The notes beneath the pieces were generated by a model. It did not search any database and was not told where the DNA came from. It saw only the letters and a program-made list of their open reading frames with translations. A stretch of 64,000 bases of DNA, from positions 8,987,001 through 9,051,000 of the forward strand of contig OX387197.1 in the NCBI GenBank assembly GCA_947561715.1. The letters are read 5' to 3'. The stretch comes from Ascidia mentula. Its lineage: Eukaryota; Chordata; Ascidiacea; Phlebobranchia; Ascidiidae. Each line of letters opens with the position of its first letter. Position 1 is the stretch's first letter. This document shows, piece after piece, positions 23,649-44,581 of this stretch. Position numbers and translations under genes: made by a program.

Positions 23649-23656
23649 AAGGTAGT
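23649..23656. other. Left target-site duplication AAGGTAGT
   Basis: Eight bases identical to 44574-44581, directly outside the terminal inverted repeat starting ACCACTC. They define the left boundary of the giant element. Confidence 0.85.
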
Positions 23657-23905
23657 ACCACTCTCATTCTGGCAGAATTCTGGCAGAATAATTTTGCAAA
23701 TTTGCCACATTCTACAAGGTACAACAGACATTTACTCAAAAATTGTTTTTTTTGGATTAAAATCAAATTACAGAGATGAGCAAGCAGATCAAACCTCAAA
23801 AAACATTTAAACAACATTTTCCGCAGCTGTATCAATCAAAAAAATCGCGAATTAAAAAAATCGCCTGGTTTTGCGATTCAGCATAATGGCGGCATGCGAA
23901 AAACT
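23657..23905 (+). repeat. Left outer terminal inverted repeat
   Basis: Single-copy outer part of the arm, the reverse complement of 44325-44573. The tip holds a direct doublet, ATTCTGGCAGA twice in a row. The inner part grades into the 205-bp unit (GCATGCGAAAAACT shared). Confidence 0.85.
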
Positions 23906-26900
23906 AGTCTAATACAAAGAATTCTGCTCGGCGTTCTTGCAATAGGTGCCAATATTGACCAATATCAAGAGAACGGAAATTTAATTCTCTACAACATGCA
24001 ATTAACAAATTTGAAATTAAGGTGCCGGATGACCTTCAAATCGCCGATTGAAGACGACCCGCTTTGAGCGAATCAGCAGCGTAATGGCGTAATGTCGGCA
24101 TGCGAAAAACTTCCCTATTAAAACAATTCTGCTCGGCGTTCTGGCAATAGGTGCCAATATTGACCAATATCAAGAGAACGGAAATTTAATTCTCTACAAC
24201 ATGCAATTAACAAATTTGAAATTAAGGTGCCGGATGACCTTCAAATCGCCGATTGAAGACGACCCGCTTTGAGCGAATCAGCAGCGTAATGGCGTAATGT
24301 CGGCATGCGAAAAACTTCCCTATTAAAACAATTCTGCTCGGCGTTCTGGCAATAGGTGCCAATATTGACCAATATCAAGAGAACGGAAATTTAATTCTCT
24401 ACAACATGCAATTAACAAATTTGAAATTAAGGTGCCGGATGACCTTCAAATCGCCGATTGAAGACGACCCGCTTTGAGCGAATCAGCAGCGTAATGGCGT
24501 AATGTCGGCATGCGAAAAACTTCCCTATTAAAACAATTCTGCTCGGCGTTCTGGCAATAGGTGCCAATATTGACCAATATCAAGAGAACGGAAATTTAAT
24601 TCTCTACAACATGCAATTAACAAATTTGAAATTAAGGTGCCGGATGACCTTCAAATCGCCGATTGAAGACGACCCGCTTTGAGCGAATCAGCAGCGTAAT
24701 GGCGTAATGTCGGCATGCGAAAAACTTCCCTATTAAAACAATTCTGCTCGGCGTTCTGGCAATAGGTGCCAATATTGACCAATATCAAGAGAACGGAAAT
24801 TTAATTCTCTACAACATGCAATTAACAAATTTGAAATTAAGGTGCCGGATGACCTTCAAATCGCCGATTGAAGACGACCCGCTTTGAGCGAATCAGCAGC
24901 GTAATGGCGTAATGTCGGCATGCGAAAAACTTCCCTATTAAAACAATTCTGCTCGGCGTTCTGGCAATAGGTGCCAATATTGACCAATATCAAGAGAACG
25001 GAAATTTAATTCTCTACAACATGCAATTAACAAATTTGAAATTAAGGTGCCGGATGACCTTCAAATCGCCGATTGAAGACGACCCGCTTTGAGCGAATCA
25101 GCAGCGTAATGGCGTAATGTCGGCATGCGAAAAACTTCCCTATTAAAACAATTCTGCTCGGCGTTCTGGCAATAGGTGCCAATATTGACCAATATCAAGA
25201 GAACGGAAATTTAATTCTCTACAACATGCAATTAACAAATTTGAAATTAAGGTGCCGGATGACCTTCAAATCGCCGATTGAAGACGACCCGCTTTGAGCG
25301 AATCAGCAGCGTAATGGCGTAATGTCGGCATGCGAAAAACTTCCCTATTAAAACAATTCTGCTCGGCCTTCTGGCAATAGGTGCCAATATTGACCAATAT
25401 CAAGAGAACGGAAATTTAATTCTCTACAACATGCAATTAACAAATTTGAAATTAAGGTGCCGGATGACCTTCAAATCGCCGATTGAAGACGACCCGCTTT
25501 GAGCGAATCAGCAGCGTAATGGCGTAATGTCGGCATGCGAAAAACTTCCCTATTAAAACAATTCTGCTCGGCGTTCTGGCAATAGGTGCCAATATTGACC
25601 AATATCAAGAGAACGGAAATTTAATTCTCTACAACATGCAATTAACAAATTTGAAATTAAGGTGCCGGATGACTTTCAAATCGCCGATTGAAGACGACCC
25701 GCTTTGAGCGAATCAGCAGCGTAATGGCGTAATGTCGGCATGCGAAAAACTTCCCTATTAAAACAATTCTGCTCGGCCTTCTGGCAATAGGTGCCAATAT
25801 TGACCAATATCAAGAGAACGGAAATTTAATTCTCTACAACATGCAATTAACAAATTTGAAATTAAGGTGCCGGATGACCTTCAAATCGCCGATTGAAGAC
25901 GACCCGCTTTGAGCGAATCAGCAGCGTAATGGCGTAATGTCGGCATGCGAAAAACTTCCCTATTAAAACAATTCTGCTCGGCGTTCTGGCAATAGGTGCC
26001 AATATTGACCAATATCAAGAGAACGGAAATTTAATTCTCTACAACATGCAATTAACAAATTTGAAATTAAGGTGCCGGATGACCTTCAAATCGCCGATTG
26101 AAGACGACCCGCTTTGAGCGAATCAGCAGCGTAATGGCGTAATGTCGGCATGCGAAAAACTTCCCTATTAAAACAATTCTGCTCGGCGTTCTGGCAATAG
26201 GTGCCAATATTGACCAATATCAAGAGAACGGAAATTTAATTCTCTACAACATGCAATTAACAAATTTGAAATTAAGGTGCCGGATGACCTTCAAATCGCC
26301 GATTGAAGACGACCCGCTTTGAGCGAGTCAGCAGCGTAATGGCGTAATGTCGGCATGCGAAAAACTTCCATATTAAAACAATTCTGCTCGGCGTTCTGGC
26401 AATAGGTGCCAATATTGACCAATATCAAGAGAACGGAAATTTAATTCTCTACAACATGCAATTAACAAATTTGAAATTAAGGTGCCGGATGACCTTCAAA
26501 TCGCCGATTGAAGACGACCCGCTTTGAGCGAGTCAGCAGCGTAATGGCGTAATGTCGGCATGCGAAAAACTTCCCTATTAAAACAATTCTGCTCGGCGTT
26601 CTGGCAATAGGTGCCAATATTGACCAATATCAAGAGAACGGAAATTTAATTCTCTACAACATGCAATTAACAAATTTGAAATTAAGGTGCCGGATGACCT
26701 TCAAATCGCCGATTGAAGACGACCCGCTTTGAGCGAGTCAGCAGCGTAATGGCGTAATGTCGGCATGCGAAAAACTTCCCTATTAAAACAATTCTGCTCG
26801 GCGTTCTGGCAATAGGTGCCAATATTGACCAATATCAAGAGAACGGAAATTTAATTCTCTACAACATGCAATTAACAAATTTGAAATTAAGGTGCCGGAT

Positions 26901-29900
26901 GACCTTCAAATCGCCGATTGAAGACGACCCGCTTTGAGCGAGTCAGCAGCGTAATGGCGTAATGTCGGCATGCGAAAAACTTCCCTATTAAAACAATTCT
27001 GCTCGGCGTTCTGGCAATAGGTGCCAATATTGACCAATATCAAGAGAACGGAAATTTAATTCTCTACAACATGCAATTAACAAATTTGAAATTAAGGTGC
27101 CGGATGACCTTCAAATCGCCGATTGAAGACGACCCGCTTTGAGCGAGTCAGCAGCGTAATGGCGTAATGTCGGCATGCGAAAAACTTCCCTATTAAAACA
27201 ATTCTGCTCGGCGTTCTGGCAATAGGTGCCAATATTGACCAATATCAAGAGAACGGAAATTTAATTCTCTACAACATGCAATTAACAAATTTGAAATTAA
27301 GGTGCCGGATGACCTTCAAATCGCCGATTGAAGACGACCCGCTTTGAGCGAGTCAGCAGCGTAATGGCGTAATGTCGGCATGCGAAAAACTTCCCTATTA
27401 AAACAATTCTGCTCGGCGTTCTGGCAATAGGTGCCAATATTGACCAATATCAAGAGAACGGAAATTTAATTCTCTACAACATGCAATTAACAAATTTGAA
27501 ATTAAGGTGCCGGATGACCTTCAAATCGCCGATTGAAGACGACCCGCTTTGAGCGAGTCAGCAGCGTAATGGCGTAATGTCGGCATGCGAAAAACTTCCC
27601 TATTAAAACAATTCTGCTCGGCGTTCTGGCAATAGGTGCCAATATTGACCAATATCAAGAGAACGGAAATTTAATTCTCTACAACATGCAATTAACAAAT
27701 TTGAAATTAAGGTGCCGGATGACCTTCAAATCGCCGATTGAAGACGACCCGCTTTGAGCGAGTCAGCAGCGTAATGGCGTAATGTCGGCATGCGAAAAAC
27801 TTCCCTATTAAAACAATTCTGCTCGGCGTTCTGGCAATAGGTGCCAATATTGACCAATATCAAGAGAACGGAAATTTAATTCTCTACAACATGCAATTAA
27901 CAAATTTGAAATTAAGGTGCCGGATGACCTTCAAATCGCCGATTGAAGACGACCCGCTTTGAGCGAGTCAGCAGCATAATGGCGTAATGTCGGCATGCGA
28001 AAAACTTCCCTATTAAAACAATTCTGCTCGGCGTTCTGGCAATAGGTGCCAATATTGACCAATATCAAGAGAACGGAAATTTAATTCTCTACAACATGCA
28101 ATTAACAAATTTGAAATTAAGGTGCCGGATGACCTTCAAATCGCCGATTGAAGACGACCCGCTTTGAGCGAATCAGCAGCGTAATGGCGTAATGTCGGCA
28201 TGCGAAAAACTTCCCTATTAAAACAATTCTGCTCGGCCTTCTGGCAATAGGTGCCAATATTGACCAATATCAAGAGAACGGAAATTTAATTCTCTACAAC
28301 ATGCAATTAACAAATTTGAAATTAAGGTGCCGGATGACCTTCAAATCGCCGATTGAAGACGACCCGCTTTGAGCGAGTCAGCAGCGTAATGGCGTAATGT
28401 CGGCATGCGAAAAACTTCCATATTAAAACAATTCTGCTCGGCGTTCTGGCAATAGGTGCCAATATTGACCAATATCAAGAGAACGGAAATTTAATTCTCT
28501 ACAACATGCAATTAACAAATTTGAAATTAAGGTGCCGGATGACCTTCAAATCGCCGATTGAAGACGACCCGCTTTGAGCGAGTCAGCAGCGTAATGGCGT
28601 AATGTCGGCATGCGAAAAACTTCCCTATTAAAACAATTCTGCTTGGCGTTCTGGCAATAGGTGCCAATATTGACCAATATCAAGAGAACGGAAATTTAAT
28701 TCTCTACAACATGCAATTAACAAATTTGAAATTAAGGTGCCGGATGACCTTCAAATCGCCGATTGAAGACGACCCGCTTTGAGCGAGTCAGCAGCGTAAT
28801 GGCGTAATGTCGGCATGCGAAAAACTTCCCTATTAAAACAATTCTGCTCGGCGTTCTGGCAATAGGTGCCAATATTGACCAATATCAAGAGAACGGAAAT
28901 TTAATTCTCTACAACATGCAATTAACAAATTTGAAATTAAGGTGCCGGATGACCTTCAAATCGCCGATTGAAGACGACCCGCTTTGAGCGAGTCAGCAGC
29001 GTAATGGCGTAATGTCGGCATGCGAAAAACTTCCCTATTAAAACAATTCTGCTCGGCGTTCTGGCAATAGGTGCCAATATTGACCAATATCAAGAGAACG
29101 GAAATTTAATTCTCTACAACATGCAATTAACAAATTTGAAATTAAGGTGCCGGATGACCTTCAAATCGCCGATTGAAGACGACCCGCTTTGAGCGAGTCA
29201 GCAGCATAATGGCGTAATGTCGGCATGCGAAAAACTTCCCTATTAAAACAATTCTGCTCGGCGTTCTGGCAATAGGTGCCAATATTGACCAATATCAAGA
29301 GAACGGAAATTTAATTCTCTACAACATGCAATTAACAAATTTGAAATTAAGGTGCCGGATGACCTTCAAATCGCCGATTGAAGACGACCCGCTTTGAGCG
29401 AATCAGCAGCGTAATGGCGTAATGTCGGCATGCGAAAAACTTCCCTATTAAAACAATTCTGCTCGGCCTTCTGGCAATAGGTGCCAATATTGACCAATAT
29501 CAAGAGAACGGAAATTTAATTCTCTACAACATGCAATTAACAAATTTGAAATTAAGGTGCCGGATGACCTTCAAATCGCCGATTGAAGACGACCCGCTTT
29601 GAGCGAGTCAGCAGCGTAATGGCGTAATGTCGGCATGCGAAAAACTTCCATATTAAAACAATTCTGCTCGGCGTTCTGGCAATAGGTGCCAATATTGACC
29701 AATATCAAGAGAACGGAAATTTAATTCTCTACAACATGCAATTAACAAATTTGAAATTAAGGTGCCGGATGACCTTCAAATCGCCGATTGAAGACGACCC
29801 GCTTTGAGCGAGTCAGCAGCGTAATGGCGTAATGTCGGCATGCGAAAAACTTCCCTATTAAAACAATTCTGCTCGGCGTTCTGGCAATAGGTGCCAATAT

Positions 29901-32900
29901 TGACCAATATCAAGAGAACGGAAATTTAATTCTCTACAACATGCAATTAACAAATTTGAAATTAAGGTGCCGGATGACCTTCAAATCGCCGATTGAAGAC
30001 GACCCGCTTTGAGCGAGTCAGCAGCGTAATGGCGTAATGTCGGCATGCGAAAAACTTCCCTATTAAAACAATTCTGCTCGGCGTTCTGGCAATAGGTGCC
30101 AATATTGACCAATATCAAGAGAACGGAAATTTAATTCTCTACAACATGCAATTAACAAATTTGAAATTAAGGTGCCGGATGACCTTCAAATCGCCGATTG
30201 AAGACGACCCGCTTTGAGCGAGTCAGCAGCGTAATGGCGTAATGTCGGCATGCGAAAAACTTCCCTATTAAAACAATTCTGCTCGGCGTTCTGGCAATAG
30301 GTGCCAATATTGACCAATATCAAGAGAACGGAAATTTAATTCTCTACAACATGCAATTAACAAATTTGAAATTAAGGTGCCGGATGACCTTCAAATCGCC
30401 GATTGAAGACGACCCGCTTTGAGCGAGTCAGCAGCGTAATGGCGTAATGTCGGCATGCGAAAAACTTCCCTATTAAAACAATTCTGCTCGGCGTTCTGGC
30501 AATAGGTGCCAATATTGACCAATATCAAGAGAACGGAAATTTAATTCTCTACAACATGCAATTAACAAATTTGAAATTAAGGTGCCGGATGACCTTCAAA
30601 TCGCCGATTGAAGACGACCCGCTTTGAGCGAGTCAGCAGCGTAATGGCGTAATGTCGGCATGCGAAAAACTTCCCTATTAAAACAATTCTGCTCGGCGTT
30701 CTGGCAATAGGTGCCAATATTGACCAATATCAAGAGAACGGAAATTTAATTCTCTACAACATGCAATTAACAAATTTGAAATTAAGGTGCCGGATGACCT
30801 TCAAATCGCCGATTGAAGACGACCCGCTTTGAGCGAGTCAGCAGCGTAATGGCGTAATGTCGGCATGCGAAAAACTTCCCTATTAAAACAATTCTGCTCG
30901 GCGTTCTGGCAATAGGTGCCAATATTGACCAATATCAAGAGAACGGAAATTTAATTCTCTACAACATGCAATTAACAAATTTGAAATTAAGGTGCCGGAT
31001 GACCTTCAAATCGCCGATTGAAGACGACCCGCTTTGAGCGAGTCAGCAGCGTAATGGCGTAATGTCGGCATGCGAAAAACTTCCCTATTAAAACAATTCT
31101 GCTCGGCGTTCTGGCAATAGGTGCCAATATTGACCAATATCAAGAGAACGGAAATTTAATTCTCTACAACATGCAATTAACAAATTTGAAATTAAGGTGC
31201 CGGATGACCTTCAAATCGCCGATTGAAGACGACCCGCTTTGAGCGAGTCAGCAGCATAATGGCGTAATGTCGGCATGCGAAAAACTTCCCTATTAAAACA
31301 ATTCTGCTCGGCGTTCTGGCAATAGGTGCCAATATTGACCAATATCAAGAGAACGGAAATTTAATTCTCTACAACATGCAATTAACAAATTTGAAATTAA
31401 GGTGCCGGATGACCTTCAAATCGCCGATTGAAGACGACCCGCTTTGAGCGAATCAGCAGCGTAATGGCGTAATGTCGGCATGCGAAAAACTTCCCTATTA
31501 AAACAATTCTGCTCGGCCTTCTGGCAATAGGTGCCAATATTGACCAATATCAAGAGAACGGAAATTTAATTCTCTACAACATGCAATTAACAAATTTGAA
31601 ATTAAGGTGCCGGATGACCTTCAAATCGCCGATTGAAGACGACCCGCTTTGAGCGAGTCAGCAGCGTAATGGCGTAATGTCGGCATGCGAAAAACTTCCA
31701 TATTAAAACAATTCTGCTCGGCGTTCTGGCAATAGGTGCCAATATTGACCAATATCAAGAGAACGGAAATTTAATTCTCTACAACATGCAATTAACAAAT
31801 TTGAAATTAAGGTGCCGGATGACCTTCAAATCGCCGATTGAAGACGACCCGCTTTGAGCGAGTCAGCAGCGTAATGGCGTAATGTCGGCATGCGAAAAAC
31901 TTCCCTATTAAAACAATTCTGCTCGGCGTTCTGGCAATAGGTGCCAATATTGACCAATATCAAGAGAACGGAAATTTAATTCTCTACAACATGCAATTAA
32001 CAAATTTGAAATTAAGGTGCCGGATGACCTTCAAATCGCCGATTGAAGACGACCCGCTTTGAGCGAGTCAGCAGCGTAATGGCGTAATGTCGGCATGCGA
32101 AAAACTTCCCTATTAAAACAATTCTGCTCGGCGTTCTGGCAATAGGTGCCAATATTGACCAATATCAAGAGAACGGAAATTTAATTCTCTACAACATGCA
32201 ATTAACAAATTTGAAATTAAGGTGCCGGATGACCTTCAAATCGCCGATTGAAGACGACCCGCTTTGAGCGAGTCAGCAGCGTAATGGCGTAATGTCGGCA
32301 TGCGAAAAACTTCCCTATTAAAACAATTCTGCTCGGCGTTCTGGCAATAGGTGCCAATATTGACCAATATCAAGAGAACGGAAATTTAATTCTCTACAAC
32401 ATGCAATTAACAAATTTGAAATTAAGGTGCCGGATGACCTTCAAATCGCCGATTGAAGACGACCCGCTTTGAGCGAGTCAGCAGCGTAATGGCGTAATGT
32501 CGGCATGCGAAAAACTTCCCTATTAAAACAATTCTGCTCGGCGTTCTGGCAATAGGTGCCAATATTGACCAATATCAAGAGAACGGAAATTTAATTCTCT
32601 ACAACATGCAATTAACAAATTTGAAATTAAGGTGCCGGATGACCTTCAAATCGCCGATTGAAGACGACCCGCTTTGAGCGAGTCAGCAGCGTAATGGCGT
32701 AATGTCGGCATGCGAAAAACTTCCCTATTAAAACAATTCTGCTCGGCGTTCTGGCAATAGGTGCCAATATTGACCAATATCAAGAGAACGGAAATTTAAT
32801 TCTCTACAACATGCAATTAACAAATTTGAAATTAAGGTGCCGGATGACCTTCAAATCGCCGATTGAAGACGACCCGCTTTGAGCGAGTCAGCAGCGTAAT

Positions 32901-35900
32901 GGCGTAATGTCGGCATGCGAAAAACTTCCCTATTAAAACAATTCTGCTCGGCGTTCTGGCAATAGGTGCCAATATTGACCAATATCAAGAGAACGGAAAT
33001 TTAATTCTCTACAACATGCAATTAACAAATTTGAAATTAAGGTGCCGGATGACCTTCAAATCGCCGATTGAAGACGACCCGCTTTGAGCGAGTCAGCAGC
33101 GTAATGGCGTAATGTCGGCATGCGAAAAACTTCCCTATTAAAACAATTCTGCTCGGCGTTCTGGCAATAGGTGCCAATATTGACCAATATCAAGAGAACG
33201 GAAATTTAATTCTCTACAACATGCAATTAACAAATTTGAAATTAAGGTGCCGGATGACCTTCAAATCGCCGATTGAAGACGACCCGCTTTGAGCGAGTCA
33301 GCAGCATAATGGCGTAATGTCGGCATGCGAAAAACTTCCCTATTAAAACAATTCTGCTCGGCGTTCTGGCAATAGGTGCCAATATTGACCAATATCAAGA
33401 GAACGGAAATTTAATTCTCTACAACATGCAATTAACAAATTTGAAATTAAGGTGCCGGATGACCTTCAAATCGCCGATTGAAGACGACCCGCTTTGAGCG
33501 AGTCAGCAGCGTAATGGCGTAATGTCGGCATGCGAAAAACTTCCCTATTAAAACAATTCTGCTCGGCGTTCTGGCAATAGGTGCCAATATTGACCAATAT
33601 CAAGAGAACGGAAATTTAATTCTCTACAACATGCAATTAACAAATTTGAAATTAAGGTGCCGGATGACCTTCAAATCGCCGATTGAAGACGACCCGCTTT
33701 GAGCGAGTCAGCAGCATAATGGCGTAATGTCGGCATGCGAAAAACTTCCCTATTAAAACAATTCTGCTCGGCGTTCTGGCAATAGGTGCCAATATTGACC
33801 AATATCAAGAGAACGGAAATTTAATTCTCTACAACATGCAATTAACAAATTTGAAATTAAGGTGCCGGATGACCTTCAAATCGCCGATTGAAGACGACCC
33901 GCTTTGAGCGAATCAGCAGCGTAATGGCGTAATGTCGGCATGCGAAAAACTTCCCTATTAAAACAATTCTGCTCGGCCTTCTGGCAATAGGTGCCAATAT
34001 TGACCAATATCAAGAGAACGGAAATTTAATTCTCTACAACATGCAATTAACAAATTTGAAATTAAGGTGCCGGATGACCTTCAAATCGCCGATTGAAGAC
34101 GACCCGCTTTGAGCGAGTCAGCAGCGTAATGGCGTAATGTCGGCATGCGAAAAACTTCCATATTAAAACAATTCTGCTCGGCGTTCTGGCAATAGGTGCC
34201 AATATTGACCAATATCAAGAGAACGGAAATTTAATTCTCTACAACATGCAATTAACAAATTTGAAATTAAGGTGCCGGATGACCTTCAAATCGCCGATTG
34301 AAGACGACCCGCTTTGAGCGAGTCAGCAGCGTAATGGCGTAATGTCGGCATGCGAAAAACTTCCCTATTAAAACAATTCTGCTCGGCGTTCTGGCAATAG
34401 GTGCCAATATTGACCAATATCAAGAGAACGGAAATTTAATTCTCTACAACATGCAATTAACAAATTTGAAATTAAGGTGCCGGATGACCTTCAAATCGCC
34501 GATTGAAGACGACCCGCTTTGAGCGAGTCAGCAGCGTAATGGCGTAATGTCGGCATGCGAAAAACTTCCCTATTAAAACAATTCTGCTCGGCGTTCTGGC
34601 AATAGGTGCCAATATTGACCAATATCAAGAGAACGGAAATTTAATTCTCTACAACATGCAATTAACAAATTTGAAATTAAGGTGCCGGATGACCTTCAAA
34701 TCGCCGATTGAAGACGACCCGCTTTGAGCGAGTCAGCAGCGTAATGGCGTAATGTCGGCATGCGAAAAACTTCCCTATTAAAACAATTCTGCTCGGCGTT
34801 CTGGCAATAGGTGCCAATATTGACCAATATCAAGAGAACGGAAATTTAATTCTCTACAACATGCAATTAACAAATTTGAAATTAAGGTGCCGGATGACCT
34901 TCAAATCGCCGATTGAAGACGACCCGCTTTGAGCGAGTCAGCAGCGTAATGGCGTAATGTCGGCATGCGAAAAACTTCCCTATTAAAACAATTCTGCTCG
35001 GCGTTCTGGCAATAGGTGCCAATATTGACCAATATCAAGAGAACGGAAATTTAATTCTCTACAACATGCAATTAACAAATTTGAAATTAAGGTGCCGGAT
35101 GACCTTCAAATCGCCGATTGAAGACGACCCGCTTTGAGCGAGTCAGCAGCGTAATGGCGTAATGTCGGCATGCGAAAAACTTCCCTATTAAAACAATTCT
35201 GCTCGGCGTTCTGGCAATAGGTGCCAATATTGACCAATATCAAGAGAACGGAAATTTAATTCTCTACAACATGCAATTAACAAATTTGAAATTAAGGTGC
35301 CGGATGACCTTCAAATCGCCGATTGAAGACGACCCGCTTTGAGCGAGTCAGCAGCGTAATGGCGTAATGTCGGCATGCGAAAAACTTCCCTATTAAAACA
35401 ATTCTGCTCGGCGTTCTGGCAATAGGTGCCAATATTGACCAATATCAAGAGAACGGAAATTTAATTCTCTACAACATGCAATTAACAAATTTGAAATTAA
35501 GGTGCCGGATGACCTTCAAATCGCCGATTGAAGACGACCCGCTTTGAGCGAGTCAGCAGCGTAATGGCGTAATGTCGGCATGCGAAAAACTTCCCTATTA
35601 AAACAATTCTGCTCGGCGTTCTGGCAATAGGTGCCAATATTGACCAATATCAAGAGAACGGAAATTTAATTCTCTACAACATGCAATTAACAAATTTGAA
35701 ATTAAGGTGCCGGATGACCTTCAAATCGCCGATTGAAGACGACCCGCTTTGAGCGAGTCAGCAGCATAATGGCGTAATGTCGGCATGCGAAAAACTTCCC
35801 TATTAAAACAATTCTGCTCGGCGTTCTGGCAATAGGTGCCAATATTGACCAATATCAAGAGAACGGAAATTTAATTCTCTACAACATGCAATTAACAAAT

Positions 35901-36016
35901 TTGAAATTAAGGTGCCGGATGACCTTCAAATCGCCGATTGAAGACGACCCGCTTTGAGCGAATCAGCAGCGTAATGGCGTAATGTCGGCATGCGAAAAAC
36001 TTCCCTATTAAAACAA
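23906..36016 (+). repeat. Left satellite array, 205-bp unit, about 59 copies
   Basis: The junction TTCCCTATTA recurs at 24111, 24316, 24521 and onward to 36001, exactly 205 bp apart (58 intervals). Units are nearly identical and differ at a few positions: AATCAG or AGTCAG, CGGCGTT or CGGCCTT, TTCCC or TTCCA, CAGCGTAAT or CAGCATAAT. No long ORF is present. Each unit contains the inverted repeat ATATTG-AC-CAATAT. The array stops at 36016 inside a unit, where AAACAATTCTGC is replaced by core sequence. Confidence 0.95.
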
Positions 36017-36335
36017 AAAATGCACTAAAACTGCACCTAACACGCTGAAAATCGCTATACCACGTGATTTCTTGCTCATTCAACCTGAAAATTGACCCCA
36101 ATGCATCACCGGTTGCCTTGTGACGAAACTGAGAATCTCTATGACGCAGGAGTACAAGACGGGCAATCCCCGCGGGCAAAACTATTTTAATAGAGTTGCT
36201 GATATGCGGTCTTTAGTCCTATTTTCATAAAATAAAGTTTGGTCCTGGCATTGAAATTCGTTTTGGTCGAAGATTGCCTTTCTTTTTGTTTGTCCTTTAT
36301 GACGCATTGACGTTGATGAGGACATATTTCGCGCG
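36017..36335. other. Left edge of the element core
   Basis: Unique sequence between the left array and the PHD-like ORF. No coding region is recognised. Confidence 0.5.
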
Positions 36336-37050
36336 TTATCGTTTGACTGAATAATCACTCTTCTTTGGTAAAAGTGATTCAAACTTTAAATCCTCAGTTA
36401 TTGTTTTTTTGTTGCTTTCACACTCTGCTTCCACACTGTCTGATAAAGGTGGCTCTTGTAGCAAAGTTACATCTGTAGTAGAATTTTTGTGCTGACTGTC
36501 AAAAACCTTTTCAGAATATTTTTCTTTCAATACTGCAACATGCTCATGAACAAAAGTTGGCAAATTTGGAATAATATCTTCACCACACACAATGTTGGTG
36601 TTCTGCCACTCACTTTCTGTCAATAGCAATGCTGCATGGCCTTGCGGAAACACACAGGATGGATGTAACCATTCTTTGCATACACTGCACTCTATCATCA
36701 ATTCTCCCTCATACGGCTTGTGACATATGCAATATGTTTCACTTTTTACATCCCGATTTATACTGTTCATGTCATGTATTAAAGACATCACTCTTCTTCG
36801 TAAATCATGGTTACTACGCCAACTTTTGTTGAAACGCAAAACAGCTTTTTTGGATACTTTTGTCTTTTTCAATCCAAAGTATGACTTCAGGCACTTGTGA
36901 TCTATTATGTTGTCAAGTGGTTGAAAGTTGTTTGTAACAACAAACGCCCTGGCCAATGCAAAAATGTCGAAATGTATTCCATGGTTTCCATGTATTCCAT
37001 GGTTTCTAGTATTCCATGGCAGACTACTGGTAAGGATCAGTGTTTCAAAG
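36336..37050 (-). CDS. PHD-finger-like ORF inside the giant element
   Basis: The open minus-strand frame ends at 36336; the part that looks protein-coding reaches up to about 37050. It contains CICHKPYEGELMIEC followed by SVCKEWLHPSC, the Cys4-His-Cys part of a PHD zinc finger. PHD fingers usually read histone H3 tails. The last zinc pair is incomplete: only one Cys (IVC) is seen before the frame continues as EDIIPNL. N-terminal to it is a Lys/Arg-rich segment and a small duplication (HGIHGNHGIH). The upstream frame crosses a G/C homopolymer and encodes polyproline, so the true 5' end is unknown. A small exon beginning at ATG 37530 is possible. The ORF is either element-encoded or a captured host fragment. 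Confidence 0.5.
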
Positions 37051-37161
37051 AAATTAACAATACGCCTAGAAAAAGCAAACGGTAAAAAACGTCTTTCAAA
37101 CATCCACTTATAATTGGACACATCAAAAATGAAAACGAAGACAAACATAGGCGCCTGGTCC

Positions 37162-37182
37162 GGGGGGGGGGGGGGGGGGGGG
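37162..37182 (+). repeat. Run of 21 G, followed by CGGCGCCCCCC
   Basis: An uninterrupted G homopolymer followed by a C-rich block that could pair with it. It is a candidate G-quadruplex or hairpin and a likely sequencing-length uncertainty. Confidence 0.9.
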
Positions 37183-37507
37183 CGGCGCCCCCCCTCAGGT
37201 TTTCTTTTAAAAAAACCAGTGGATATTACGCGCGTCTGTCCGCACCATGTAACTCGTCGCATTCGTAACGTACGAAGAAAAAATGACCTGAAAACAAAGT
37301 GTTTCTTACACGACGCACACAAAATATGTTGACCTAACGTCAGTCTCGCATTTCTTCGGTTGTTGCAACGTCAGTCTCGCATTATCATATGCCAACAGGT
37401 AGTTATTGGTTGTGTCGTAGACCGATCTTGTGCGTTTATCGTTAACGCCGCCCTTTTGGCTAATACGCCTCATGCGTTGAAGTTTAAACACGATATTTGC
37501 TGATGTA

Positions 37508-37571
37508 ATAGTTACAAATTGTGACGCCATAGTTACAAATTATGACGTCATAGTTACAGATTATGACGTCA
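37508..37571. promoter_or_regulatory. Three 21-bp repeats carrying CRE/ATF palindromes
   Basis: The unit ATAGTTACAAATTRTGACGYC occurs three times (37508-37528, 37529-37549, 37550-37570). Two perfect TGACGTCA sites lie at 37543-37550 and 37564-37571, and TGACGCCA lies at 37522-37529. A further TGACGTCA lies at 37755-37762 and CACGTG near 37716. They sit between the minus-strand PHD-side frame and a plus-strand ORF at 37922, so they may be the element's central promoter. Confidence 0.5.
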
Positions 37572-37617
37572 TAATATAGCCGCCCCCTGGAAAAATTAAA
37601 ACTAGGCGCCTATGCGA

Positions 37618-37640
37618 ACAAACAAACAAACAAACAAACC
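37618..37640. repeat. (CAAA)n microsatellite
   Basis: Short run of CAAA units inside the element core. Confidence 0.8.
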
Positions 37641-37893
37641 AAAAACGAACCAACTTCCAATACAAAAAACATCTTCTGTGTCGTCCTGTGCGTACGTAAC
37701 ATTCAACACAGCGGGAGTCACGTGACATAAGCACATGGAAACATAGAAATGTCATGACGTCAGTCCAAACTAATTTTCGGTGGCAACAAGTAATTTCCTT
37801 GTCTATAATTAATCTGGGCACGTTTTAAACATTTTGGGACAGCGAATGGTATAGGATTGTTTCACACTAACAGGTAATTAAAACCTTTGTAAT

Positions 37894-38436
37894 TCACTGA
37901 CGAATAACGCTTATATGATTTTTGTCAGAAATGCCACAGTTTGGAGACGAGGTTATTAACTTAGAGTCAGGGCGGTCGTTTGTAATTATTGTTGCACAAC
38001 GTTTGGCTTGTCCTTTTGTACGTGGAAAACAGGTCACAAATATAAACAATGCCAATATTGCATATTTCATATTAATATACACGGTGTTCTCTGCAACAGC
38101 CTTCAACAGCCAAAAGGAAAGGTCAAGCGATAACCGTTGTTGGTATTGCATCTTGTACGGGTCAGTTTGTGGAGTCATGTATCGTCGCGAATCAAAGATT
38201 GTGATAAGACATGCATGTTTCGGTGTGATTACATGTGGGACCTTTGGTCTATTCTTTTTTATCATTGAAGAAAGAGGGAAAAAACTGTAGCGGTGAATAA
38301 TTAAAGAAAAAGGGGGCATAGGGGCAAAAAACAAACACAATGGCGCAAAAATACAAATTACTTGGGTACACGACAAACAGCTTAAACATGGTTTTATAAG
38401 ATATTCAGTTGTTTTATTTTGACCACCGATGTTCAA
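37894..38436 (-). other. Unassigned ORF region in the element core
   Basis: The minus strand is open for 180 codons and the plus strand for 122 codons (37922-38290) over the same DNA. Neither product shows a domain I recognise. The minus product has hydrophobic stretches and the plus one two possible membrane segments (near SFVIIVAQ and FGVITCGTFGLFFFII). Which strand, if any, codes is open. Confidence 0.25.
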
Positions 38437-38649
38437 TTCAATAGTTCTTGTCGATTAAAATACGAATAATTGTTGGTCGCCTATTAGCGTATTGCATCTG
38501 TACATTACATGCCAACAACAACAAAGTGCACAGTCAAAAAAACATTACAAAATAGTATGAAATTTCAGTACTGTTTCACAATATCACAATATGACTATAG
38601 TAAGAATTAAAACCGTTTCATAGGCAAAAGACGCACGATACAGTTTTGC

Positions 38650-39912
38650 TAGCTTAAATTCCTTTAATTGTTTGTTGGTCATGATAGCCATGGGGTTCGG
38701 TTTAAATTGGGAGCTTATTAGTTTCCTCTTCACTGCAGCTTTTTTTGGAGATTAGCCTCCAGGGTAACCTATCCGCTAACAAGAAGTCCCATAAACCTTG
38801 TGCTTTGGCTGGATTTGTATTACCATTCTGCTGTAACCAAGTATAGAAGGTCTTTGTGTACCCAAAGTGTTGTAAGATATTTTAGACACGTATGTTGGCT
38901 TTTTTTGTTTGCGAAGGAACTGTGTCCCACTCCTCATGTAGACTTGCTACAAGCTGCAGAAACTTGACGAAAAAATGTTGTATTTGGCTCAAAACCAAAC
39001 TCTGTAACGAATATACCAACAGGTCAACAAGAGCAAATACTCACTCTTCGTGAAAATTTTCTAAAAAATGGTTTACTGCGCTTTTTTATAATTTTGTCCA
39101 AGCTGTTGCGCATGTGGTTGGATTTTTGGCTGAGAATTGACATCGCCATACTTTTGACACAATGTAAGGTTTTCAAAGAAATAAGAGTCTTCAATATTTT
39201 GCTATGGAACAACCGACGAATTTAAGAGCACCTCAAATCTGTTTTGGTGCAGAAATCGTGTTTGGAGATTGGTTTTGTTTGGTTAAAAGGTTTGGATAAC
39301 AGCGCTTTAAATTAAGAGGCAACATATGATTCTCATTATCTATCATACCCCCGCCCATGCAAAATTTAAGATATGGTAACGCTTTTATTTCTTTCCTATT
39401 ATGGCTATAGTTATCTTCCCGATAAGGGTTATTCCTCTGGTCGCCCAAAGGTTCATAACTATGTTGGCTTTTTCGGGGAAGGGAGAAAGTTTAATTCAAT
39501 TATTTTTTTAAGATTTTTGAGAAATCAGTATCCGAACCTTTTGTAAAAACAATGCAAACGGGGATGATTTTTATTCATGCAGACCACGAACAAAGTTAAG
39601 GAGAGTGGGTCATCTTGTCTGAGGCCACGTTCTATGTCAAACGATTCCAAGAAATATGGTGTCGAAAATTTGCATGTAGGCCTATGTGGAAACATGGTAA
39701 TGGTCCCTAATGTCAATAATGTCGAACAGCAACCGGATATTTGACCCTATATATCGGTGCGGTTGGAAGCCGTGTCGCTCCTTCGATAGAAAACCACGTA
39801 TCTTGCGTTGACGACTTTTAAGGAGATCTTGTAGTCCATGTTTAGCAAAGGTATCGGGCGATAATTTGGGAATATAGAAAACCTTTCCCACTATTAGGAA
39901 ACAGGGTGACAA
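38650..39912 (-). pseudogene. Decayed LINE (non-LTR retrotransposon) reverse-transcriptase relic
   Basis: Minus-strand fragments in order: GFQPHRYIGSNIRLLFDII (about 39820-39730), which resembles the HRxIGxNIRLI..II block of L1/Tx1-like reverse transcriptases, and IERGLRQDDPLSLTLFVVC (about 39650-39570), matching the ERGVRQGDPLSPYLF block. The region between these blocks, where the DFEKAFD motif should lie, is missing. Further down, KEIKALPYLKF (near 39400) could be the start of the YADD region with the catalytic residues lost. Frames are broken. It is an old insertion carried inside the giant element. Confidence 0.6.
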
Positions 39913-39946
39913 CTCCTTTACATTGTGAATAGATATTCTACCTGAT

Positions 39947-42900
39947 TAAGTTTCCGTTCTCTTGATATTGGTCAATATTGGCACCTACTACAAGAACGCC
40001 GAGCAGAATTGTTGTAATAAGGAAGTTTTTATTGACATTACGCCATTACGCTGCTGATTCGCTCAAAGCGGGTCGTCTTCAATGGGCGATTTGAAGGTCA
40101 TCCGGCACCTTAATTTCAAATTTGTTAATTGCATGTTGTAGAGAATTAAATTTCCGTTCTCTTGATATTGGTCAATATTGGCACCTATTGCCAGAACGCC
40201 GAGCAGAATTGTTTTAATAGGGAAGTTTTTCGCATGCCGACATTACGCCATTACGCTGCTGATTCGCTCAAAGCGGGTCGTCTTCAATCGGCGATTTGAA
40301 GGTCATCCGGCACCTTAATTTCAAATTTGTTAATTGCATGTTGTAGAGAATTAAATTTCCGTTCTCTTGATATTGGTCAATATTGGCACCTATTGCCAGA
40401 ACGCCGAGCAGAATTGTTTTAATAGGGAAGTTTTTCGCATGCCGACATTACGCCATTACGCTGCTGATTCGCTCAAAGCGGGTCGTCTTCAATCGGCGAT
40501 TTGAAGGTCATCCGGCACCTTAATTTCAAATTTGTTAATTGCATGTTGTAGAGAATTAAATTTCCGTTCTCTTGATATTGGTCAATATTGGCACCTATTG
40601 CCAGAACGCCGAGCAGAATTGTTTTAATAGGGAAGTTTTTCGCATGCCGACATTACGCCATTACGCTGCTGATTCGCTCAAAGCGGGTCGTCTTCAATCG
40701 GCGATTTGAAGGTCATCCGGCACCTTAATTTCAAATTTGTTAATTGCATGTTGTAGAGAATTAAATTTCCGTTCTCTTGATATTGGTCAATATTGGCACC
40801 TATTGCCAGAACGCCGAGCAGAATTGTTTTAATAGGGAAGTTTTTCGCATGCCGACATTACGCCATTACGCTGCTGATTCGCTCAAAGCGGGTCGTCTTC
40901 AATCGGCGATTTGAAGGTCATCCGGCACCTTAATTTCAAATTTGTTAATTGCATGTTGTAGAGAATTAAATTTCCGTTCTCTTGATATTGGTCAATATTG
41001 GCACCTATTGCCAGAACGCCGAGCAGAATTGTTTTAATATGGAAGTTTTTCGCATGCCGACATTACGCCATTACGCTGCTGACTCGCTCAAAGCGGGTCG
41101 TCTTCAATCGGCGATTTGAAGGTCATCCGGCACCTTAATTTCAAATTTGTTAATTGCATGTTGTAGAGAATTAAATTTCCGTTCTCTTGATATTGGTCAA
41201 TATTGGCACCTATTGCCAGAAGGCCGAGCAGAATTGTTTTAATAGGGAAGTTTTTCGCATGCCGACATTACGCCATTACGCTGCTGATTCGCTCAAAGCG
41301 GGTCGTCTTCAATCGGCGATTTGAAGGTCATCCGGCACCTTAATTTCAAATTTGTTAATTGCATGTTGTAGAGAATTAAATTTCCGTTCTCTTGATATTG
41401 GTCAATATTGGCACCTATTGCCAGAACGCCGAGCAGAATTGTTTTAATAGGGAAGTTTTTCGCATGCCGACATTACGCCATTATGCTGCTGACTCGCTCA
41501 AAGCGGGTCGTCTTCAATCGGCGATTTGAAGGTCATCCGGCACCTTAATTTCAAATTTGTTAATTGCATGTTGTAGAGAATTAAATTTCCGTTCTCTTGA
41601 TATTGGTCAATATTGGCACCTATTGCCAGAACGCCGAGCAGAATTGTTTTAATAGGGAAGTTTTTCGCATGCCGACATTACGCCATTACGCTGCTGATTC
41701 GCTCAAAGCGGGTCGTCTTCAATCGGCGATTTGAAGGTCATCCGGCACCTTAATTTCAAATTTGTTAATTGCATGTTGTAGAGAATTAAATTTCCGTTCT
41801 CTTGATATTGGTCAATATTGGCACCTATTGCCAGAACGCCGAGCAGAATTGTTTTAATAGGGAAGTTTTTCGCATGCCGACATTACGCCATTACGCTGCT
41901 GATTCGCTCAAAGCGGGTCGTCTTCAATCGGCGATTTGAAGGTCATCCGGCACCTTAATTTCAAATTTGTTAATTGCATGTTGTAGAGAATTAAATTTCC
42001 GTTCTCTTGATATTGGTCAATATTGGCACCTATTGCCAGAACGCCGAGCAGAATTGTTTTAATAGGGAAGTTTTTCGCATGCCGACATTACGCCATTACG
42101 CTGCTGATTCGCTCAAAGCGGGTCGTCTTCAATCGGCGATTTGAAGGTCATCCGGCACCTTAATTTCAAATTTGTTAATTGCATGTTGTAGAGAATTAAA
42201 TTTCCGTTCTCTTGATATTGGTCAATATTGGCACCTATTGCCAGAACGCCGAGCAGAATTGTTTTAATAGGGAAGTTTTTCGCATGCCGACATTACGCCA
42301 TTACGCTGCTGATTCGCTCAAAGCGGGTCGTCTTCAATCGGCGATTTGAAGGTCATCCGGCACCTTAATTTCAAATTTGTTAATTGCATGTTGTAGAGAA
42401 TTAAATTTCCGTTCTCTTGATATTGGTCAATATTGGCACCTATTGCCAGAACGCCGAGCAGAATTGTTTTAATAGGGAAGTTTTTCGCATGCCGACATTA
42501 CGCCATTACGCTGCTGATTCGCTCAAAGCGGGTCGTCTTCAATCGGCGATTTGAAGGTCATCCGGCACCTTAATTTCAAATTTGTTAATTGCATGTTGTA
42601 GAGAATTAAATTTCCGTTCTCTTGATATTGGTCAATATTGGCACCTATTGCCAGAAGGCCGAGCAGAATTGTTTTAATAGGGAAGTTTTTCGCATGCCGA
42701 CATTACGCCATTACGCTGCTGATTCGCTCAAAGCGGGTCGTCTTCAATCGGCGATTTGAAGGTCATCCGGCACCTTAATTTCAAATTTGTTAATTGCATG
42801 TTGTAGAGAATTAAATTTCCGTTCTCTTGATATTGGTCAATATTGGCACCTATTGCCAGAACGCCGAGCAGAATTGTTTTAATAGGGAAGTTTTTCGCAT

Positions 42901-44324
42901 GCCGACATTACGCCATTACGCTGCTGATTCGCTCAAAGCGGGTCGTCTTCAATCGGCGATTTGAAGGTCATCCGGCACCTTAATTTCAAATTTGTTAATT
43001 GCATGTTGTAGAGAATTAAATTTCCGTTCTCTTGATATTGGTCAATATTGGCACCTATTGCCAGAAGGCCGAGCAGAATTGTTTTAATAGGGAAGTTTTT
43101 CGCATGCCGACATTACGCCATTACGCTGCTGATTCGCTCAAAGCGGGTCGTCTTCAATCGGCGATTTGAAGGTCATCCGGCACCTTAATTTCAAATTTGT
43201 TAATTGCATGTTGTAGAGAATTAAATTTCCGTTCTCTTGATATTGGTCAATATTGGCACCTATTGCCAGAACGCCGAGCAGAATTGTTTTAATAGGGAAG
43301 TTTTTCGCATGCCGACATTACGCCATTACGCTGCTGATTCGCTCAAAGCGGGTCGTCTTCAATCGGCGATTTGAAGGTCATCCGGCACCTTAATTTCAAA
43401 TTTGTTAATTGCATGTTGTAGAGAATTAAATTTCCGTTCTCTTGATATTGGTCAATATTGGCACCTATTGCCAGAACGCCGAGCAGAATTGTTTTAATAG
43501 GGAAGTTTTTCGCATGCCGACATTACGCCATTACGCTGCTGATTCGCTCAAAGCGGGTCGTCTTCAATCGGCGATTTGAAGGTCATCCGGCACCTTAATT
43601 TCAAATTTGTTAATTGCATGTTGTAGAGAATTAAATTTCCGTTCTCTTGATATTGGTCAATATTGGCACCTATTGCCAGAACGCCGAGCAGAATTGTTTT
43701 AATAGGGAAGTTTTTCGCATGCCGACATTACGCCATTACGCTGCTGATTCGCTCAAAGCGGGTCGTCTTCAATCGGCGATTTGAAGGTCATCCGGCACCT
43801 TAATTTCAAATTTGTTAATTGCATGTTGTAGAGAATTAAATTTCCGTTCTCTTGATATTGGTCAGTATTGGCACCTATTGCCAGAACGCCGAGCAGAATT
43901 GTTTTAATAGGGAAGTTTTTCGCATGCCGACATTACGCCATTACGCTGCTGATTCGCTCAAAGCGGGTCGTCTTCAATCGGCGATTTGAAGGTCATCCGG
44001 CACCTTAATTTCAAATTTGTTAATTGCATGTTGTAGAGAATTAAATTTCCGTTCTCTTGATATTGGTCAATATTGGCACCTATTGCCAGAAGGCCGAGCA
44101 GAATTGTTTTAATAGGGAAGTTTTTCGCATGCCGACATTACGCCATTACGCTGCTGATTCGCTCAAAGCGGGTCGTCTTCAATCGGCGATTTGAAGGTCA
44201 TCCGGCACCTTAATTTCAAATTTGTTAATTGCATGTTGTAGAGAATTAAATTTCCGTTCTCTTGATATTGGTCAATATTGGCACCTATTGCAAGAACGCC
44301 GAGCAGAATTCTTTGTATTAGACT
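39947..44324 (-). repeat. Right satellite array, 205-bp unit, about 21 copies, inverted
   Basis: The reverse complement of the left unit repeats every 205 bp (GTTTTAATAG at 40211, 40416 and so on). The innermost copy (39947-40150) is clearly more diverged (CTACTACAAG, GTAATAAGG, CAATGGGCG) than the rest. It carries the same variant positions as the left array. Confidence 0.95.
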
Positions 44325-44573
44325 AGTTTTTCGCATGCCGCCATTATGCTGAATCGCAAAACTAGGCGATTTTTTTAATTCGCGATTTTTTTGATTGATA
44401 CAGCTGCGGAAAATGTTGTTTAAATGTTTTTTGAGGTTTGATCTGCTTGCTCATCTCTGTAATTTGATTCTAATCCAAAAAAAACAATTTTTGAGTAAAT
44501 GTCTGTTGTACCTTGTAGAATGTGGCAAATTTGCAAAATTATTCTGCCAGAATTCTGCCAGAATGAGAGTGGT
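44325..44573 (-). repeat. Right outer terminal inverted repeat
   Basis: Reverse complement of 23657-23905, with only two substitutions seen by eye. It ends GAGAGTGGT next to the duplication AAGGTAGT. Confidence 0.85.
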
Positions 44574-44581
44574 AAGGTAGT
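44574..44581. other. Right target-site duplication AAGGTAGT
   Basis: Identical to 23649-23656. It marks the right boundary of the giant element, 520 bp before the PAIP1 start codon. Confidence 0.85.

Follow-up and report, generated by a model that had tools for sequence, protein, structure and literature searches.

A foldback-type transposon family with satellite-array arms in the sea squirt Ascidia mentula

Described elements with repeats in their inverted arms

Rehavkus elements, an outgroup of MULEs for which arthropods and annelids are named as hosts, carry a PHD finger, 9-bp target-site duplications, ends of 26-400 bp and a minisatellite (PMC6446971, Table 1), and Rehavkus-1_TC of Tribolium holds 164-bp repeats in its inverted ends (PMC10218199). 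Tetris of Drosophila virilis has an outer flanking domain and ~220-bp repeats in unequal arms, with 8-10-bp duplications; its authors suggested that arrays of greater size may have interfered with transposition (PMC4079207). Galileo, of the P superfamily, carries tandem ~210-bp repeats that vary independently between its foldback-like arms (PMC3573991), and these repeats contain transposase-binding sites (PMC3688188). The foldback Tm1 of root-knot nematodes, placed in the Phantom subclass of Mutator, has composite tandem-repeat arms and 8-10-bp duplications, and occurs in copies with and without a MULE transposase (PMC3169594). Proteases have also been found with the proteins of mobile elements. 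Ginger1 transposases carry a C-terminal Ulp1 domain, in one family together with a PHD finger, Ulp1 occurs in animal and plant Mutators, and a C19 peptidase accompanies a Trichomonas transposase (PMC2836005). Helitrons with deubiquitinases have been described as well (PMC9741609).

We analyzed a window of 64,000 nucleotides of Ascidia mentula (contig OX387197.1, positions 8,987,001 to 9,051,000); the published assembly of this species was built from 74-fold HiFi reads (PMC11109543). The window holds a member of a repeat-armed family which, as far as the cited descriptions of Rehavkus extend, shares with it a PHD finger in the transposase and tandem repeats in the inverted termini, and differs in its mostly 8-bp duplications, fused protease domains and chordate host. 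Its unit is 205 bp long, and an arm holds up to 63 units (76 in one gapped copy), against mostly five and eight in Rehavkus. Like Tetris it has an outer domain and repeat arrays of unequal length in its inverted arms; the Tetris account reports three structurally complete copies and no transposase, whereas here there are 44 pairs of ends and one coding copy, so that a satellite-armed foldback can be tied to a coding copy, beyond what that study could do. Unlike what was suggested for Tetris, copies that hold dozens of units in an arm carry exact duplications, which indicates that an element is not necessarily broken up by large arrays, although growth after insertion is possible. Galileo, as described, has up to three repeats, arms of ~1.26 kb, 7-bp flanking sequences, a THAP transposase and its longest arms never in nearly complete copies (PMC3573991), whereas the coding copy here has long arms. 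Tm1 differs in its 13-15-bp repeats and 496-aa transposase (PMC3169594) and Ginger1 in its Gypsy-type integrase core and 4-bp duplications (PMC2836005); Zisupton shares 8-bp duplications with the family (PMC12730594). The original prediction held satellite-filled arms of this size to be uncommon. Tetris, Galileo, Tm1 and Rehavkus-1_TC are precedents for the plan, but the arms in the window are much longer.

The element in the window and its family

The element occupies positions 23657-44573 (20,917 bp) and is flanked on both sides by a perfect 8-bp duplication (Table 1). Tandem Repeats Finder delimited the left array at 23884-36016 (period 205, 59.2 copies, 99% match) and the right array, its reverse complement, at 39945-44346 (period 205, 21.5 copies); units are ~99% alike within these arms. 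Compared with each other, the arms have two differences in the first 249 bp (positions 104 and 211) and three in the first 600 bp. The original prediction of a 20.9-kb unit with inverted ends flanked by AAGGTAGT, 205-bp tandem arms of about 59 and 21 copies, and outer 250 bp differing by about two bases was borne out on each count. A run of 21 G lies in the interior (37162-37182), where the antisense frame reads poly-proline.

Table 1. Parts of the element, with positions in the window
Feature	Position	Strand	Basis
Left target-site duplication, AAGGTAGT	23649..23656		Sequence comparison of flanks
Left-arm outer domain, starting ACCACTCTCATTCTGG	23657..23880	+	Terminus search and arm comparison
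Left array, ~59 units of 205 bp	23881..36016	+	Tandem Repeats Finder and unit comparison
Left remnant of ancestral interior	36017..36349	+	Match to C69 full-length copy
344-codon frame, N-terminal remnant of transposase-like gene	36336..37370	-	Frame list and match to C69
Deletion junction	36348..36349		Alignment to full-length copy C69
Right part of ancestral interior	36348..39944		Colinear with L049:4584-8616 (full-length copy)
PHD finger PF00628, 26.4 bits against a cut-off of 24	36630..36731	-	Pfam search
Right array, ~21 units of 205 bp, inverted	39945..44349	-	Tandem Repeats Finder and unit comparison
Right-arm outer domain	44350..44573	-	Terminus search and arm comparison
Right target-site duplication, AAGGTAGT	44574..44581		Sequence comparison of flanks

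A search of the whole genome with the 41-bp element terminus, allowing up to three mismatches, returned 100 matches (54 forward, 46 reverse), against none for the reversed terminus used as a control. These ends form 44 inward-facing pairs, 2.3-26.4 kb apart and spread over all nine large contigs; 12 of the 100 stay unpaired and are omitted from the pair tally. Exact duplications flank 41 of the 44 pairs, 8 bp long in 36 and 9 bp in five, one of which sits in a TG repeat and is ambiguous; three pairs have none, and mispaired flanks matched in 0 of 86,032 control comparisons. Both results against their controls show that the ends of the window element are not a product of chance. With long inverted arms made of internal tandem repeats and flanking duplications, the unit is a foldback-type mobile element in a family of dozens of copies, and the duplications around other copies with the same ends support the earlier claim of a single mobile unit; a genome search for further copies with 8-bp duplications, which had been proposed, is answered by the counts above. 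Sequence was read completely for 24 pairs and at the ends only for 20, among which one was also read over 13 kb and the full-length copy over 16 kb. All 24 complete pairs have an outer domain of similar length (~225 bp) and, inside it, 205-bp arrays that differ in length between the arms. A diverged end of the family at C1:13366003 is 72 bp away from another copy's right end, which suggests that two copies inserted side by side.

The coding copy, its deleted derivatives and its affinities

The full-length copy is a 26.4-kb pair, C69:11163300-11189706, with the duplication GTTTATAC. The 16 kb read (L090 and L049) and its two ends leave ~10 kb of arms outside, and the arms would hold ~44 and ~33 units. 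The window fragment with the PHD finger (36339-36878, minus strand) is 98% identical to C69:11178809-11179312, which lies inside an uninterrupted frame of 1871 codons. The original prediction had recognized no transposase in the window element, a statement that the 344-codon frame of Table 1 overturns, and the longer, transposase-bearing copy that it proposed to look for is this 26.4-kb copy with its transposase-like gene. The 1871-codon frame contains a PHD finger (23.1 bits, just under the cut-off of 24), a zinc domain, a putative D-D-CxxH-E core, possibly of RNase-H fold, a probable C48 protease and a clear USP-type protease. Its first Met codons are 20, 61 and 95, so the encoded protein may be slightly shorter.

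The window copy is without ~5.68 kb of the full-length interior (C69:11172907-11178583), including the catalytic and protease parts, and no catalytic-core match fell at its locus among the 74 matches of the genome search. Both sides of the interior are kept: window positions 36028-36349 are 98.8% identical to C69:11172585-11172906, and the right interior is colinear with L049:4584-8616 except for indels, the number of 99-bp repeats and ~226 bp extra in the full-length copy. The element thus retains the N-terminal PHD part and has lost the core and the proteases. The extra ~226 bp (L049:6514-6738), with an edge overlap of ~16 bp, is perhaps a small nested insertion. Three 99-bp tandem repeats lie in the transposase frame at L049:4611-4909, and the window copy aligns with one of them.

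Among the 24 fully read copies, 22 have a centre of more than 100 bp, and in the other two the arrays meet. All 22 centres match the ~10-kb full-length interior over 87-100% of their own length, with identities of 90.0-92.5% for the eight that make up a 1066-1163-bp class and mostly 92-99% for the rest. In the copy C67:9957508-9962281 the centre holds part of the interior twice in opposite orientations, which makes it a second-level foldback. When the genome was searched with the catalytic region, a single complete family copy came up, and the next match of comparable length had 42% identity; 65 of 213 candidates were scored, and these counts are lower bounds. A 54-residue fragment at C71:17323069 is 81% identical and contains a stop. 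It is highly probable, in our judgment, that the window element is a deleted, non-autonomous member of a cut-and-paste family, moved by an enzyme acting in trans, with arrays that turn over in place. The full-length copy or a sister copy would have supplied the enzyme, which would act at the ACCAC..GTGGT ends and insert the element with 8- or sometimes 9-bp duplications, a footprint seen in the flanks from which the chemistry is surmised. Repeated internal deletions would remove the gene and leave the arms.

The superfamily had been left open among P/Galileo, hAT and a relative of Mutator. The choice now falls on the Mutator side, and the family probably, with some doubt, belongs to the MULE/IS256 group and has a Rehavkus-like plan; P/Galileo and hAT are less likely. 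This plan consists of the PHD finger, the repeats in the inverted ends and the duplications, whose lengths lie within the 8-11 bp of MULEs in all 41 cases. The best match of the catalytic core is ISCth4, and the zinc domain resembles the WRKY fold. The MULE domain PF10551 did not rise above its cut-off and is missing from what a Pfam search of the full-length frame gives up to E 1, with weak matches only in one of five members of set A3 (0.073) and in P0027 (0.041); hence the label MULE/IS256-like rather than proven MULE. Genome-wide, PF10551 has 49 matches, 48 above the cut-off, and among the matches listed none lies inside the 44 pairs. A sequence-profile search of solved structures gave none at E<=10, Foldseek gave none at E<=0.001 (its top rows were meaningless), and an NCBIfam search gave none.

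That the family belongs to Rehavkus in the strict sense, within the Rehavkus-1_TC clade and with a homologous transposase, has in our view somewhat less than an even chance. The PHD finger, repeats in or beside the inverted termini and duplications near 9 bp agree with the published descriptions (PMC6446971, PMC10218199), but the duplications are mostly 8 bp, with 9 bp in five of 44, and the passages on Rehavkus in these sources mention no fused proteases. Since the duplications are mostly 8 bp and Rehavkus was compared by description rather than by protein, we call the family Rehavkus-like and not a member. A hAT or P/Galileo-type transposon is improbable: 8-bp duplications dominate and a long, largely helical stretch separates CxxH from E in the core, as such an origin would have it, but five duplications are of 9 bp (one ambiguous), the zinc domain is WRKY-like, the best core match is ISCth4, and no hAT, P or THAP domain, the hAT dimerisation domain included, appears when the full-length frame is matched to Pfam up to E 1.

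At least 16 other loci have uninterrupted frames of 1,953-2,596 codons with cores 39-42% identical to that of the window family (for example C70:19449262-19451181, C2:8739684-8741600 and C71:17164577-17166508); they make up a diverse group, perhaps an active one, within a single genome. A remoter group (C71:9944700-9945911, C71:18530027-18531238, C70:16739575-16740783) has uninterrupted frames of 942-1248 codons and 28-30% identity over part of the core. The order of parts is core, C48-like, USP in the sea squirt (L049) and core, USP, C48 in Rotaria (P0003). Homologue set A2 leaves out 4 of 26 homologues, and in viral contigs 29 stretches fit the pattern, with no relative found by tblastn. Tentatively, and with the odds against it, we suggest that tunicates and bdelloid rotifers hold a scarcely described group of transposons that joins a DDE transposase to ubiquitin/SUMO proteases, in tunicates with a PHD finger and, at least in the window family, with satellite-breeding arms; the proteases might counter host tagging or silencing, and the arrays might act as an antenna of binding sites. 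If so, those elements of the group that have arrays would be engines of new satellite DNA. A transposase with ubiquitin- and probably SUMO-type proteases offers a testable link to host control. Proteases fused to transposases have precedents. A PHD finger, C48 and USP in one protein are not named in the relevant portion of the Ginger1 and Mutator account (PMC2836005), and a literature search requiring four of five terms, transposase, UCH, Ulp1 and Zisupton among them, found no paper; the full set may nevertheless be in print.

Turnover of the 205-bp arrays

The birth of satellite arrays is an open question, and in this family array change can be read copy by copy in one genome. Across the 24 fully read copies, one arm has from 1.2 to 76 units and the other from 2.2 to 63.2; how long the longest arms are depends on the assembly, and the 76-unit arm belongs to a copy that holds 200 Ns. 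Three copies with 1357-bp centres (3, 3 and 6 base differences) have 14.6/34.2, 26.5/63.2 and 4.5/10.2 units, two with 2985-bp centres (1 base difference) have 13.2/18.5 and 18.2/22.5, and three with 2049-bp centres (4-7 base differences) have 12.7/21.6, 5.7/22.6 and 6.7/30.6. Near-identical centres with such different arrays indicate that arrays resize quickly in place. The nearest relative of the window centre, C67:6946715, is separated from it by 57 base differences and 150 gap columns.

Mean divergence between units is 2.1% within an arm, 2.3% between the two arms of one copy and 4.5% from copy to copy. In a group of about nine copies, the units of sister copies are about as close (1.0-1.4%) as a copy's own. 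Unit divergence tends to fall as arms get longer (Spearman -0.54, p=1.2e-4, across 45 arms with three or more units), as where a 50-unit arm at 0.28% stands opposite a 4-unit arm at 3.5%; counterexamples are heterogeneous arms of 30 (3.3%), 22 (3.4%) and 21 units (3.8%). In the window, the left arm has four occurrences of an ordered run of unit variants (197A, 188A, 49C, 26A), starting from units 20, 26, 36 and 48; the right arm, read inward, has one, in which one unit carries an extra variant, and a right arm devoid of the run was thereby ruled out. This pattern shows a block that is single in the right arm and was multiplied in the left. The outermost unit has the same variants in both arms, as an array edge spared by turnover should. 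Together with the differing arrays, the variant runs indicate change in place, arm by arm, in multi-unit blocks; comparison of copies shows arrays that expand and contract inside the ends, perhaps by unequal exchange or slippage of such blocks, and the family shows satellite-like arrays growing inside mobile DNA. That the ends instead captured existing satellite arrays, or that the inverted arms are an assembly artefact, is extremely improbable: long arrays can be assembled at wrong lengths, and the read copy with the longest arm has its Ns, but the rival is already largely refuted by the duplications at 41 of 44 pairs, and the same plan recurs in all 24 read pairs, short 3.5-5 kb copies included, with the common outermost unit and ordered variant run in the window arms also against it.

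A 27-mer of the unit, allowing one mismatch, has 1245 matches genome-wide, 704 within the 24 fully read copies and 88 in partly read ones (26 in the full-length copy, 62 in C69:6876728); the other 453 may sit in pairs outside those read or in single ends. These figures are undercounts, because the 27-mer misses some unit subfamilies, and three copies of 13-55 units have 0, 0 and 1 matches. On these counts, the suggestion in the original prediction that such arms might seed satellite DNA elsewhere is unproven. By analogy with Galileo, the arrays may serve as many enzyme-binding sites. The terminal motif TTCTGGCA, found twice in the outer end and once per 205-bp unit, was not supported as such an array-repeated site, since position 54, which lies within the motif, is one of the most variable positions (11 of 24 copies). 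An invariant 50-bp core of the unit (110-159) is no more than suggestive (permutation p=0.055 over 23 copies, with one copy of three units left out). In three copies (C2:4536737, C1:7522109, C67:4380590) the ratio of units between the arms stays at ~0.42-0.44 over a sixfold change in size, which may be chance.
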